NCBI GenBank assembly: GCA_018644675.1
Contig: JABGQC010000008.1
Span: 1-37,286, forward strand
Source: Candidatus Thioglobus sp.
GTDB lineage: Bacteria > Pseudomonadota > Gammaproteobacteria > PS1 > Pseudothioglobaceae
Direction of reading: 5' to 3'
Length of the DNA: 37,286 nucleotides
Shown: in pieces, positions 3,920 through 26,413 of the stretch
Numbering within the stretch: the stretch's first letter is position 1
Layout of the letters: each line of letters opens with the position of its first letter
The notes under the pieces: model-generated
Told to the model about the DNA's origin: nothing
Database searches by the model: none
The model's input: the letters and a program-made list of their open reading frames with translations, nothing else
Translations under genes and position numbers: made by a program

Positions 3920-5206
3920 TTACTTCTTTTTTAGTCGCTCAATACCCAACATTTTAAAAATGTATTTTTGATAAGCAGGCTCAGAATTTCCAGTTTTCAT
4001 ATTTCGAATGAAGAACTTCTCAAAAGCAATCTTCGCCAAGTGCATCATCTTACCTTTTTTAGCCCAAGTAACATTGCGCGGTGGAATTTGAGGCATGGCC
4101 ACAAAGGCGGCACCCGTGTCACCCATATCAGCAATACAAACCGCATTCCAAGTTGGAATGTGTGATGGCGCATTGCCGGCAATCATGTCTTCAATGTTAT
4201 GCACAACTGCCGTTACCATAGATTCAATCATGTAGCCAGTTTTTGGTGTACCACACATGACCGGAGTGGCTTCTACAGGAGGGATGGCAATATTAACACC
4301 GAGTGAAAAAATATTGTCTTTTACAGGAGACTGTTGGTGGTCATTGATCATGACAAAGCCTCGTGGGTTAACGTATCCTGGGTCAACTTCTGCAAGTTTA
4401 GCAACTGTATCTACACCTTTAAAGGCTGGCAACATCATGGTGTGTTTAGTAGCCACCTCGTGGGTTTTGATTGTGTTGCCTTCACCATCTACTTCCTCAA
4501 CAGTAACGATATCTGCTGCAACAGAAGCTACTTTGGCATTGGTAATCCATTTAATATGACGATTTCTAAACTCAGATTCTAAAAGGCCCTTTGAATCACC
4601 GACACCTCCTAAACCTAAATGACCAATGTAAGGTTCGGCAGTAACAAAAGTCATTGGGCATTTGTCACGAATTCCGCGTTTTTTAAGATCGGTATCCATG
4701 ATGGTTGCAAATTCATAGGCCGGACCAAAACAAGAGGCACCTTGTACTGCACCAACAACAATTGGGCCGCCACCATTATTACAAAAAGCCTCCCATTCAC
4801 TAGAGGCAACTTTAGCATGTGCTGTTGTACAGATAGATACGCTGTGTCCATCAGGACCAAGACCTTCCACTTCGTCAAAAGCAAGTTTAGGGCCAGTGGC
4901 TAATACTAAATAATCGTAGTCAACCGTTTGATCGCCAACCATCACTTGATTTTCATTAGGTTTGATTTCTGTTGCTTCGCCAACAATTAGATTAATATCT
5001 TTGCGCTTAAGTCTTGGCTCAAGCTCAAAACTAATGTCCTCTTCACTGCGCCAGCCAACAGCAAGCCAAGGATTAGAAGGAATAAAGTTAAAGTTTGGAT
5101 TGTTAGAAATGACACTCACTTGGTGAGCGCTCCCTAGTGTTTTTTTAATATCGTAAGCAAAAGGCAAACCGCCCGTGCTCGCGCCAATAACGACAATATG
5201 CGCCAT
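3920..5206 (-). CDS. sqr: FAD-dependent sulfide:quinone oxidoreductase
   Basis: Membrane-associated flavoprotein that oxidises sulfide and passes electrons to the quinone pool. Of 428 residues, the N-terminus is a dinucleotide-binding strand-loop (IVVIGASTGGLPFAYDI, residues 4-20), with VLATGPKL near 101-108 as the second FAD contact. Three cysteines, C126 (SICTTA), C159 (GASCFGP) and C318 (VMCGTPKTGYM), are spaced like the catalytic/FAD-linking cysteines of characterised SQRs. The C-terminus is basic and amphipathic, fitting peripheral membrane attachment. It is preceded by a strong ribosome-binding site (GAGGAG). Its SQR subtype is not resolved; a related FAD oxidoreductase such as flavocytochrome c FccB is less likely because no export signal is present. 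It is divergent from the ATP synthase operon. Confidence 0.85.
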   Translation of the reverse strand: MAHIVVIGASTGGLPFAYDIKKTLGSAHQVSVISNNPNFNFIPSNPWLAVGWRSEEDISFELEPRLKRKDINLIVGEATEIKPNENQVMVGDQTVDYDYLVLATGPKLAFDEVEGLGPDGHSVSICTTAHAKVASSEWEAFCNNGGGPIVVGAVQGASCFGPAYEFATIMDTDLKKRGIRDKCPMTFVTAEPYIGHLGLGGVGDSKGLLESEFRNRHIKWITNAKVASVAADIVTVEEVDGEGNTIKTHEVATKHTMMLPAFKGVDTVAKLAEVDPGYVNPRGFVMINDHQQSPVKDNIFSLGVNIAIPPVEATPVMCGTPKTGYMIESMVTAVVHNIEDMIAGNAPSHIPTWNAVCIADMGDTGAAFVAMPQIPPRNVTWAKKGKMMHLAKIAFEKFFIRNMKTGNSEPAYQKYIFKMLGIERLKKK

Positions 5207-5242
5207 ATAATTCTCCTCAACAAGATTTAGTATAAAGAGTTC

Positions 5243-5271
5243 ATTATTCGTGTGTCTTTAGCTAATGTCAA
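5243..5271 (-). promoter_or_regulatory. Sigma-70-type promoter of sqr
   Basis: On the minus strand: perfect -35 TTGACA (5266-5271), exactly 17 bases of spacer, and -10 AATAAT (5243-5248, 5/6 match). The predicted transcript would have a leader of about 30 bases carrying a strong GAGGAG ribosome-binding site. Confidence 0.65.
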
Positions 5272-5281
5272 ATGCATTAGC
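5261..5281. promoter_or_regulatory. Inverted repeat over the sqr -35, candidate operator
   Basis: Perfect arms GCTAATG (5261-5267) and CATTAGC (5275-5281) separated by 7 bases. The -35 hexamer of the predicted sqr promoter lies within it, so a bound protein would contact or mask the -35. The identity of any regulator is unknown. Confidence 0.5.
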
Positions 5282-5365
5282 AAATGATGATATTATTGGT
5301 CAATTAGAGCCTAATAAGCTGTTAAATATAACTTGTATCAATTAATTCATAATATAAAAATATAT

Positions 5366-23600: not shown

Positions 23601-23697
23601 AATATAATTTTTCATAATCACTGCGGCAGTTTCCATACTTGAGGTCTTATGTATTAGTTAATATACTTCGACTTTTGCGCGCATTACTTCCTTGCGA

Positions 23698-23934
23698 TAA
23701 TAAAAAAATACCATCCTAAAACACCTCTAAAGTTAGTTTTTATCAAGGATTTTTCTATCAAAAATTTAGAAAATTTTATAAATTTAATCTAAATCAATCT
23801 ATTTTTTCTTAAAAATGAGAATTTTCGACTGATTTATGGCTAATATTTTCATTATTTCAGTTAAAAACACCATATTTATTGAATTTTATGTGTAATTTGA
23901 GCTAAATGTGCCCATATTTGGTATTTTTTTATTA
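23698..23934. repeat. 16-base inverted repeat spanning 237 bases
   Basis: TAATAAAAAAATACCA at 23698-23713 and its exact reverse complement TGGTATTTTTTTATTA at 23919-23934. The arms are low-complexity, so chance pairing is possible; a decayed miniature inverted-repeat element is the other reading. Confidence 0.5.
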
Positions 23935-23944
23935 AAAACACCAT
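23861..23944. repeat. Pair of 13-base direct repeats
   Basis: TTAAAAACACCAT occurs at 23861-23873 and again at 23932-23944, 71 bases apart and on the same strand, just upstream of the EF-hand gene. The spacing is close to seven helical turns. They could be protein-binding sites or remnants of a duplication. Confidence 0.55.
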
Positions 23945-24027
23945 TTTAATAATTTCCGAATTTTTAATCTGTCAATGTGGCCTGCAAGGTACAATTGTGG
24001 TTCGATTGTTTTTCTTGAGGGGTGAAA

Positions 24028-24864
24028 ATGCATAAAAAATCAACGATTAGTTTATTAATGAGTTTTACTGTCGGCTTGAGTATTGTCTTTTCTTCTGCGG
24101 TTTGGGCAAAAAATCCTAACATGGCAGTTAGTAAGAGAGATAGTAATGGTGATGGAAAAGTCAGCTTAGATGAATGGGATAAGCCAGAATTTATTTTTGA
24201 TAAAATTGATTTTAATGGTGATGGGTTTATAACTGCACAAGAGTTTGCAAAAAAATGGGGTATACCTATGCCTGGTGTCGGTGATGCAAGTGAGAGAATT
24301 ACTGATGAGAAAGCAACGTTAATATTCTTAGCGGGTGGAAAACATTGTCGAACAAATGTAAGTAGCTGGGAGTTTGAACGAATGGACAATATTACAGTAA
24401 TAATCCCACCGTGTGATGAGGCAGATGATATTGATCTGGATGAGATTAAAACGCCCATTTTCGTTGCTGGTATAAGCACAGGCTCAATCAAATCTATCAA
24501 ATACTACAATAAACATCCAGAAAAGGTTTCTGGAATTATTTTGTTATCAGGGATAGCAAGTCGTAAATGTAAATGGTGTGGCAGTTTGTACGATACAGAT
24601 TATAGAAATGTTAACGTACCAGTATTATTTGTTAATCATAAGTATGATAAGTGTCCTAGTACAAAAGATATGCATATTACAAAAAGGTTTAAAAATAGTC
24701 TGCCTTCAGAAGACGCTACAATAACAATGATAACTGGTGGTTATGATCAGGGCGGATCTTCTCCTGCAAGTCAATGTTTTAAAAACACCCATCACTCGTT
24801 TTCTGGAAACGAGCCTGATGTAACTGATGTTATGAATAATTGGATTATGAAACGTATTGATTAG
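24028..24864 (+). CDS. Exported protein with two EF-hands and an alpha/beta-hydrolase-like domain
   Basis: From the ATG at 24028 (preceded by TTGAGGGG; the GTG at 24022 is too close to it) the protein has 278 residues. Residues 1-27 are a signal peptide with likely cleavage at AVWA-K. Two canonical 12-residue EF-hand loops follow: D38-SNGDGKVSLD-E49 and D61-FNGDGFITAQ-E72, each with all calcium ligands. After a proline/glycine linker, residues ~95-278 look like a small alpha/beta hydrolase: strand ATLIFLAGG, nucleophile elbow GISTG (S150), strand VPVLFVNHKYD (possible acid D207) and HH at 255-256 (possible catalytic histidine). Six cysteines in the exported part (107, 129, 181, 184, 209, 250) suggest disulfides; 181-184 is CKWC. 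Substrate unknown. Base composition is AT-richer than flanking genes, suggesting it may be acquired. Confidence 0.8.
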   Translation: MHKKSTISLLMSFTVGLSIVFSSAVWAKNPNMAVSKRDSNGDGKVSLDEWDKPEFIFDKIDFNGDGFITAQEFAKKWGIPMPGVGDASERITDEKATLIFLAGGKHCRTNVSSWEFERMDNITVIIPPCDEADDIDLDEIKTPIFVAGISTGSIKSIKYYNKHPEKVSGIILLSGIASRKCKWCGSLYDTDYRNVNVPVLFVNHKYDKCPSTKDMHITKRFKNSLPSEDATITMITGGYDQGGSSPASQCFKNTHHSFSGNEPDVTDVMNNWIMKRID

Positions 24865-24877
24865 ACGGTATTTTTAA

Positions 24878-25030
24878 ATTTTTTATTTCGTATGGTCTAA
24901 GTGTAAATTACACATTGGCGGCAGCATAGAGAATAGTAGAGTGTTTTCCTATCTAGAGTTAGATGTGAACTTTGCAGAGATGGTTGAAGAAAAAATTGCT
25001 AAAAATGGTAAAAATCATTTAGTTAAGTAA
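24878..25030 (+). pseudogene. Possible remnant of a gene 3' end
   Basis: An open frame of about 50 codons ends at TAA 25028-25030 and reads like protein in its second half (GGSIENSRVFSYLELDVNF, then AEMVEEKIAKNGKNHLVK). The only plausible start is a GTG at 24941 (29 codons) without a ribosome-binding site. It may be the tail of a decayed gene or chance. The rest of the 181-base gap 24865-25045 shows no terminator or promoter. Confidence 0.3.
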
Positions 25031-25045
25031 TGGATGTTGCGCTAG

Positions 25046-26413
25046 CTAGCATTCAGTCATGCTGAGTGCTAAGCCGCCAAGAGAAGTTTCTTTATATTTG
25101 CTGGACATATCAAGCCCTGTTTTTTTCATGGTTTCAATACAGCGATCTAGGGAAATTAAATGCTCTCCACTTTCTTTTAGTGCTAGAGAAGCGGCGAGAT
25201 AAGCGCTAATTGCACCAAAGCCATTGCGCTCGATACAAGGAATTTGTACCAAGCCCTTAACAGGATCGCAAGTTAGCCCTAGGTGATGCTCGAGTGCAAT
25301 TTCTGCGGCGTTTTCAATCTGTGCAGTTGTGCCTCCTTTAGCAGCGCATAGCCCAGCTGCAGCCATGGAAGAGGCGGATCCGACCTCCCCTTGACAGCCC
25401 ACTTCAGCCCCTGAGATTGAGCTTTTGTGTTTGATTAAGCCGCCGATAGCTGCTGCAGTTAATAAAAAATCATAGATTTGCTGCTGATTGGCATTTTGGT
25501 GGTGCACTAGATAATACAAAATAGCCGGAATAATGCCAGCAGCGCCATTAGTTGGCGCTGTTACCACCATGTGACCTGAAGCATTTTCCTCATTTACCGC
25601 CATGGCGTAAGCGCATAGCCAATCATTTACATCAGCATTTTCCGGATCTTGTTCGAGCTGTTGGTGTATATTTTTGGCGCGTCTGGGCGTATTTAAACCG
25701 CCAGGCAATGTGCCTTCACCTTGCAAGCCTTTTTCAATACAGATCTCCATGGACTGCCAAATTTTATCCAAACCTTGCTCTAGAGATTTCAGAGAAAGAC
25801 TTTGGGTTTCGTTGGCTTGTTTCATTTTTGCAATTGAAAGCTTGCTTTCTTTTGACATGGCCAGCATGGCATTGGCAGAGTCAAATGCGTATGGAAATTG
25901 TGCTTTAGACTGGCTAAGCATCGGGGCTTGGAGTTGGTGAATATCTGCCAGCGTGGTGATAAATCCACCGCCAATGGAGAAGTAAGTCTGTGTCAGGAGT
26001 ATTTGGTCTGATGCATCCAGCCACTCAAACACCATACCATTTGGATGCTCAGGTAGTGAGTGTTGTGTATCAAAAATAATGGATTTTTCAGCGTCAAATT
26101 TAATGCTGCAGTCTGACTCCAGTGAAATTGTTGTTTGATGTTGTAATTGATTCGTGAGGCTGTCTACGTCAGAGAGAGATAGATCCTCTGGTAAATAGCC
26201 ATGCAATCCTAAAATAATGGCCGAATTAGTTGAATGGCCAATGCCGGTATGCGCCAAAGAGTCTTTTAATGTGCAGCGTAGGTGGGTTCCCATTTGAGTA
26301 GGCTGCAACCGTACGTGACTGACAAAGGTATGCGCTGCTACCATTGGCCCCATGGTGTGGGAGCTTGACGGCCCAATGCCTACCTTGAACAACTCTAAAA
26401 CGCTAATAAACAT
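25046..26413 (-). CDS. sdaA: L-serine dehydratase (iron-sulfur type)
   Basis: Deaminates L-serine to pyruvate and ammonia using a [4Fe-4S] cluster. 455 residues in the single-chain arrangement: beta domain first (SVLELFKVGIGPSSSHTMGP, residues 4-23), alpha domain from about residue 170. Cluster cysteines are C340 (GAEVGCQGEVG), C382 (GLTCDPV) and C393 (IPCIERN). The protein ends in cysteine (MTEC, C455); in the Legionella enzyme the C-terminal cysteine plugs the active site by binding the fourth iron, and the same is likely here. No clear promoter; a TTGACA at 26433-26438 (minus strand) is too close to the start codon to serve. Confidence 0.95.
   Translation of the reverse strand: MFISVLELFKVGIGPSSSHTMGPMVAAHTFVSHVRLQPTQMGTHLRCTLKDSLAHTGIGHSTNSAIILGLHGYLPEDLSLSDVDSLTNQLQHQTTISLESDCSIKFDAEKSIIFDTQHSLPEHPNGMVFEWLDASDQILLTQTYFSIGGGFITTLADIHQLQAPMLSQSKAQFPYAFDSANAMLAMSKESKLSIAKMKQANETQSLSLKSLEQGLDKIWQSMEICIEKGLQGEGTLPGGLNTPRRAKNIHQQLEQDPENADVNDWLCAYAMAVNEENASGHMVVTAPTNGAAGIIPAILYYLVHHQNANQQQIYDFLLTAAAIGGLIKHKSSISGAEVGCQGEVGSASSMAAAGLCAAKGGTTAQIENAAEIALEHHLGLTCDPVKGLVQIPCIERNGFGAISAYLAASLALKESGEHLISLDRCIETMKKTGLDMSSKYKETSLGGLALSMTEC

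Follow-up and report, generated by a model that had tools for sequence, protein, structure and literature searches.

A probable exchange of the catalytic domain behind an exported EF-hand module in a Candidatus Thioglobus genome

Analysis of a 37,286-nucleotide stretch of DNA from Candidatus Thioglobus sp., a sulfur-oxidising bacterium of the sea (contig JABGQC010000008.1, hereafter the window), revealed a plus-strand gene in which a signal peptide-like N-terminus and two EF-hand loops are joined to an alpha/beta-hydrolase (ABH) domain. In related genomes the same N-terminal module, at the same syntenic place, carries an amidohydrolase domain. The reading that we favour, with a probability of about 0.7, is that the catalytic domain was replaced in place behind a conserved signal/EF-hand module, which would have given an exported, Ca2+-loaded serine hydrolase. 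It is built on observed homologies, a shared locus, a domain boundary, a conserved triad and an assembly with no match to the amidohydrolase.

The gene (P0001) starts with ATG at 24028, stops at 24864 and codes for 278 residues; a GTG two codons upstream of the ATG is also a possible start. A minus-strand ORF of 178 aa at 23964-24500 overlaps it and was dropped, both halves of the plus-strand frame having homologues. Judged by sequence comparison, the frame is placed above chance by its N-terminal module, which occurs in six other genomes, together with its hydrolase matches and five invariant residues. The preliminary description had reported the same frame with a signal-like start, two EF-hand loops and a GISTG elbow, and frame reading, Pfam searches and alignments bear out all of these.

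The N-terminus (residues 1-27, 24028-24108) is basic and hydrophobic and, as read from the sequence, ends in AVWA followed by KNP, with predicted cleavage after VWA; alignment indicated that this signal-like stretch is kept in the EF-module proteins of the relatives. EF-hand loop 1 covers residues 38-49 (24139-24174) and loop 2 residues 61-72 (24208-24243). Both are DxDxDG-type loops of 12 residues with canonical ligand positions and an acidic residue at position 12, and they were confirmed as two complete EF-hand loops by Pfam matches above cut-off to EF-hand_1 PF00036 (E=5.1e-8, 32.4 bits against a cut-off of 25.4) and PF13202 (29.1 bits against 25.9). Lanmodulin was rejected (NCBIfam, 16.4 bits against a cut-off of 135), as were weak NCBIfam matches related to XopAW, transaldolase and deiodinase, which were far under cut-off and sited over the EF loops.

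Searches with the full protein gave matches in seven of the 83 genomes of the family, its own included, and this patchy spread agrees with the earlier view of the gene as accessory; the order-level search set consisted of the same 83 genomes. Outside its own genome the matches ended between residues 50 and 99, and residues 1-94 showed 63-77% identity in the six other genomes. A wider contig search recovered nine loci with the EF module, three of which (L071-L073, from one Deltaproteobacteria MAG and two cyanobacteria) were 32-48% identical over the EF part only. The combination of EF-hands with the ABH domain was found in one of the 83 family genomes.

In all five relatives that can be read past the module, the EF-hands continue into an Amidohydro_2 (PF04909) domain of about 300 aa, a metal-dependent hydrolase that is unrelated to the 185-aa ABH domain; the sixth relative, G016, is cut by a contig end at residue 50. 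The relatives and the window genome belong to the Candidatus Thioglobus group, for which SUP05 is presumably another label, and the window genome shares its genus with three of them. The window protein is like these proteins in its signal/EF module, in its locus after trpB and in partly alignable upstream DNA, and unlike them in having a serine hydrolase in place of the amidohydrolase. Homology runs through part of the upstream DNA, the signal, both EF-hands and into the linker (residues 83-94, 24274-24309), and stops at about residue 94 (nucleotide ~24306), which coincides with the start of both catalytic domains. No match to the Amidohydro_2 domain was found in the window or in its genome assembly. 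The amidohydrolase is the commoner and probably the older partner of the EF module. A 331-aa frame of G017 (L113), a genome with no EF-module match, is 32% identical to the amidohydrolase domain and is possibly an EF-less relative of it.

The locus comparison suggested by the preliminary description revealed a shared syntenic place after trpB, at which the relatives carry the Amidohydro_2 domain. The gene order is trpB, EF-ABH, sdaA, MFS, glmU in the window and trpB, EF-amidohydrolase, MFS, glmU in G010 and G005; G020 has the latter order plus a 250-aa ORF between trpB and the EF gene. The order in G007 is trpB, sdaA, EF-amidohydrolase, MFS, glmU, while G026 has EF-amidohydrolase, a 129-aa ORF and glmU with no MFS between, and in G016 trpB is followed by the EF gene cut by the contig end. 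Several intervals have no EF gene: G002 and G009 show trpB, sdaA and MFS, and G006 trpB and MFS. G001 and G008 show trpB and sdaA up to a contig end, G011 an amidohydrolase tail only, at a contig end beside MFS, and in G003 the MFS gene lies close to the end of a contig; neither the MFS nor the EF query matched in G004.

The 250-aa ORF of G020 (L005:675-1427; L053 ~4562-5314) has two CxxCH motifs and is cytochrome c-like, and the 129-aa ORF of G026 (L003:1797-2186) lies where others have the MFS gene. The serine ammonia-lyase gene sdaA (25046-26413 in the window; L052, L056, L057, L063) occurs before or after the EF gene, or at loci that lack one. Since its position varies among the relatives, the stretch between trpB and MFS is apparently a hot spot of rearrangement. 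In G001 the sdaA match, which lies at the contig end (L062, 4351-4550), is split into two parts read in different frames, and one of the aligned segments contains a stop.

The ABH domain covers residues ~93-278 (24304-24861). When it was searched as a single sequence against 368 other genomes of the class, 11 of them had a match at or below E 1e-3; the lowest E value was 3.6e-10. Six of the 11 matching frames (L009, L011, L012, L015, L017 and L019) are open over 261-306 aa from stop to stop and most of these, by eye, start hydrophobic; the remaining five are longer frames or a piece. Alignment A1 was first made from the window domain and eight of the 11 matches, L013, L014 and L016 being left out. 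A profile built on A1, which includes the window domain, recovered that domain with E=7.8e-53 and matched 32 of 398 genomes of the phylum, its own among them; the weaker of these matches are probably general hydrolases. No relative was confirmed in the wider contig set, and the single sequence gave no match in the other 82 family genomes at E 0.1. The profile did detect broken ABH copies, with a frame break and a stop, in G084 (L076, L078) and G085 (L074, L079), one-contig genomes of 1.2 and 1.5 Mb from another genus of the same family, which suggests that the enzyme was lost in these lineages; a match of 29 positions was also obtained in G035.

A larger alignment joined the window domain to 19 sequences, picked for their greater length and better scores out of the 49 other ORFs that matched. 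S150 (24475-24477), D207 (24646-24648), C209 (24652-24654), C250 (24775-24777) and H256 (24793-24795) were identical in all 20 sequences, an outcome that the choice of good scorers favours, and G152 was kept in 18. A G-x-S-x-G elbow followed in order by an aspartate and a histidine is thus conserved across the alignment, with S150 as predicted nucleophile and D207 and H256 as predicted catalytic acid and histidine. The earlier proposal of S150 and D207 therefore stands; of the two histidines that it named, H256 is the invariant one, while H255 was discarded because its column is variable (histidine in 4 of 20). It had also stressed six cysteines (107, 129, 181, 184, 209 and 250), of which C209 and C250 are family-invariant; the columns of C107, C129, C181 and C184 hold cysteine in none of the 19 other sequences, so that the CKWC pair, C181/C184, was rejected as a family metal site.

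The window domain is 15-25% identical to the 19 other sequences and is the most compact of the 20, with 47 residues from residue 102 to the nucleophile against 64-95. The EF-loop pattern, which occurs twice in the window protein, was found in none of the 49 other ABH-matching ORFs (among them five duplicates and some gene pieces), so the survey of homologues supports conservation of S150, D207 and H256 and gives no second case of the EF-hand/hydrolase order. Pfam Hydrolase_4 PF12146 reached 25.0 and 26.5 bits, just under its cut-off of 27, and the domain was not filed as a member; DLH, which the preliminary description had named, was not among the Pfam matches listed. The nucleophile of dienelactone hydrolase is a cysteine; the elbow of the window protein has a serine, and this identity was rejected. 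PDB sequence matches gave no hydrolase identity, the 39 listed being mainly EF-hand proteins (best E 0.0016) with none named hydrolase.

A single-sequence model of the ABH domain was of low confidence (mean pLDDT 54.7, pTM 0.61). Foldseek with this model gave human monoglyceride lipase as the top match (E 1.8e-4), the best PDB matches being mostly hydrolases, and a second structure comparison gave Z values of 8.2-9.7, the best over 142 residues at 3.5 A. By title, nearly all of the 50 PDB matches listed for this model are hydrolases, lipases, esterases or thioesterases. The full-length model (mean pLDDT 54.6) has strands at 96-102, 144-149, 167-174, 199-206 and 232-238 and helices at 151-162 and 265-277, with strand 144-149 preceding S150 and strand 199-206 preceding D207. 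Residues 204-222 (D207/C209), 236-262 (C250/H256) and much of the EF region have pLDDT below 50, and the triad geometry and the disulfide therefore lie outside what the model shows. These low-confidence models favour the ABH fold and stop short of settling it. Together with the family alignment they uphold the original assignment and support the C-terminal half as a divergent compact ABH domain.

The DNA around the gene was also compared. The AT-rich noncoding region upstream (23601-24027) holds a 24-nt near-palindrome at 23762-23785 and can be partly aligned upstream of the EF-amidohydrolase genes of G005, G010, G016 and G026, with 72% identity over 434 nt for G016; no alignment was obtained with G007. 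Short upstream pieces also align to EF-less intervals (G001, G002, G006). AT-rich intergenic stretches of this kind (23601-24020 in the window; L050-L063) are common to Thioglobus genomes, also beside sdaA where there is no EF gene, and 23601-24020 has no second copy in its own genome at E 1e-3. Downstream, a 46-codon open tail (24890-25030) gave no match in Pfam or in the other 82 family genomes. This tail may be a remnant that arrived with the ABH segment, and the upstream DNA is AT-rich and noncoding as described earlier.

GC and GC3 were 0.355 and 0.266 for the ABH part and 0.352 and 0.242 for the EF part, both lower than in the flanking genes. The similar composition of the two parts and the tail without relatives raise the possibility that ~24306-25045 was acquired or rearranged as a single segment; blastn of 24301-25045 against the other loci compared gave no match at E 0.01. 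Promoter-like sites were not enriched (5 against a mean of 7.5 in shuffles), and three terminator-like matches lie inside the gene (shuffle mean 0.7), two of them being one site on both strands. A viral origin was rejected, no relative being confirmed in viral contigs with P0001, A1 or A4 and none in phages, as was a plasmid origin, for which there was a single distant match of 25% identity on an 819-kb Novosphingobium plasmid.

Under the favoured reading, the module, made up of a Sec-type signal and an EF-hand pair, carries Amidohydro_2 in the Thioglobus relatives, and in the window lineage a shortened member of the mostly standalone ABH family would have taken the place of the amidohydrolase, joined at the domain boundary. 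A phylogeny drawn from at most five flanking proteins, not all of them available in every genome, grouped the window with G001 and G002 (support 0.986). The short EF-module tree, with support values of 0.31-0.88, placed it weakly near G026 and G010. The sister genome G002 lacks an EF gene at this place, and in G007 sdaA lies on the other side of the EF gene. The interval has therefore been altered at least twice, and to picture one simple swap may be an oversimplification; the EF module has thus been lost, gained or moved several times between trpB and MFS.

The simplest route to the replacement is a deletion fusion, in which a neighbouring ABH gene would have been joined to the EF-hand start after loss of the amidohydrolase and of the ABH 5'-end; we put it somewhat short of even odds, direct recombination being the alternative. 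The broken copies in G084 and G085 indicate that EF-less ABH genes exist in the family, the window domain lacks the N-terminal stretch that precedes the first aligned strand of the standalone proteins, as a 5' loss predicts, and a remnant-like tail follows the stop. However, among the loci read no genome has both genes adjacent, and the shortening extends inside the domain, to the segment before the nucleophile, and is not confined to the 5'-end.

As to function, the replaced-domain protein would be exported by Sec, and both EF loops would fill with Ca2+ in the periplasm or in seawater. This filling would help to fold, stabilise or position the enzyme, whose S150-D207-H256 triad may hydrolyse an ester or a related acyl substrate through an acyl-enzyme at S150. 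Of the invariant cysteines, C209 lies close to the acid D207 and C250 to the histidine H256, and a C209-C250 disulfide, as their placement in the alignment suggests, probably pins the loops that hold the acid and the histidine; a similar disulfide placement is found in IsPETase.

A genuine calcium-sensing role, in which the EF pair would turn the hydrolase on and off, seems unlikely, although the canonical ligands of both loops would allow it. Seawater Ca2+ is millimolar and would keep micromolar sites filled. The EF module is shared by two unrelated catalytic domains, which points to a general role in folding, stability or placement over specific allosteric control, and constitutive Ca2+ loading with a structural role is, in the sea, at least as likely as calcium regulation. 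In favour of a sensor, EfhP of Pseudomonas aeruginosa, a protein with two EF-hands that is predicted to be periplasmic, binds Ca2+ with an affinity of 13.7 uM (PMC9132961). A more speculative and rather improbable extension is that the module is a reusable chassis on which Thioglobus lineages exchange the enzyme in place, and that both folds perform one and the same task on a common class of extracytoplasmic substrate, as a non-orthologous displacement of a single domain inside a gene.

It is considered very unlikely that the junction is chimeric, with foreign ABH sequence attached during assembly or binning to the front end of an EF-amidohydrolase gene. The chief caveat of the favoured reading is that the fusion is seen in a single genome of the 83, a draft in 48 contigs in which the amidohydrolase domain was not found, as a chimera would have it. 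Yet the frame crosses the junction without a stop, and the downstream flank is native, sdaA being 85% identical to that of G002 and adjoining MFS in both genomes. The ABH and EF parts are also alike in GC and GC3, both under the flanking genes, and the other 82 family genomes hold no near ABH source at E 0.1. Least likely of all is a catalytically dead, decaying relic, as the divergence and shortening of the domain and the broken copies in G084 and G085 might suggest, given that the 278-codon frame is intact and the triad residues and both family cysteines are kept.

Among known proteins, the mostly standalone Pseudomonadota ABHs of A1 (G-x-S-x-G, D-x-C, C-(5)-H) share the triad and the two invariant cysteines with the window protein and differ in having no EF-loop pattern, a longer pre-nucleophile segment and none of the four extra cysteines; the family libraries searched gave no name for them. 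Monoglyceride lipase and Est1E-type ABHs (3hju, 2wtm) rank high in the fold comparison with the low-confidence model, at 12-16% identity, the likeness concerning the predicted fold and not a demonstrated substrate. EfhP and the Caulobacter CaBP also come from Gram-negative bacteria and combine EF-hands with a signal peptide; the available parts of their accounts describe them as Ca2+-binding proteins and mention no enzymatic domain. Bacterial EF-hand dyads fused to sulfatase, thioredoxin, cytochrome, NADPH oxidase and other domains have been described (PMC7016017), an arrangement similar to that of the window protein; the partners named in the available part of that account include neither an alpha/beta-hydrolase nor Amidohydro_2. 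Among the papers listed for EF-hands with Thioglobus, amidohydrolase or esterase, none by title dealt with this protein.

Each part of the protein is of a known kind, and the interest of the gene lies more in the probable exchange of catalytic domains than in its being a lone curiosity. Inference of domain swaps commonly has to span deep time, whereas in these relatives, whose genomes are very small, a single syntenic locus displays the two states as well as the boundary. The comparison further brings out serine hydrolases with cysteines as a widespread family that is nameless in the libraries searched. If the favoured reading is true, an export/EF-hand module can persist while the catalytic fold behind it is replaced, and comparison of the two natural fusions would offer a direct test of what EF-hands do in exported enzymes of bacteria.
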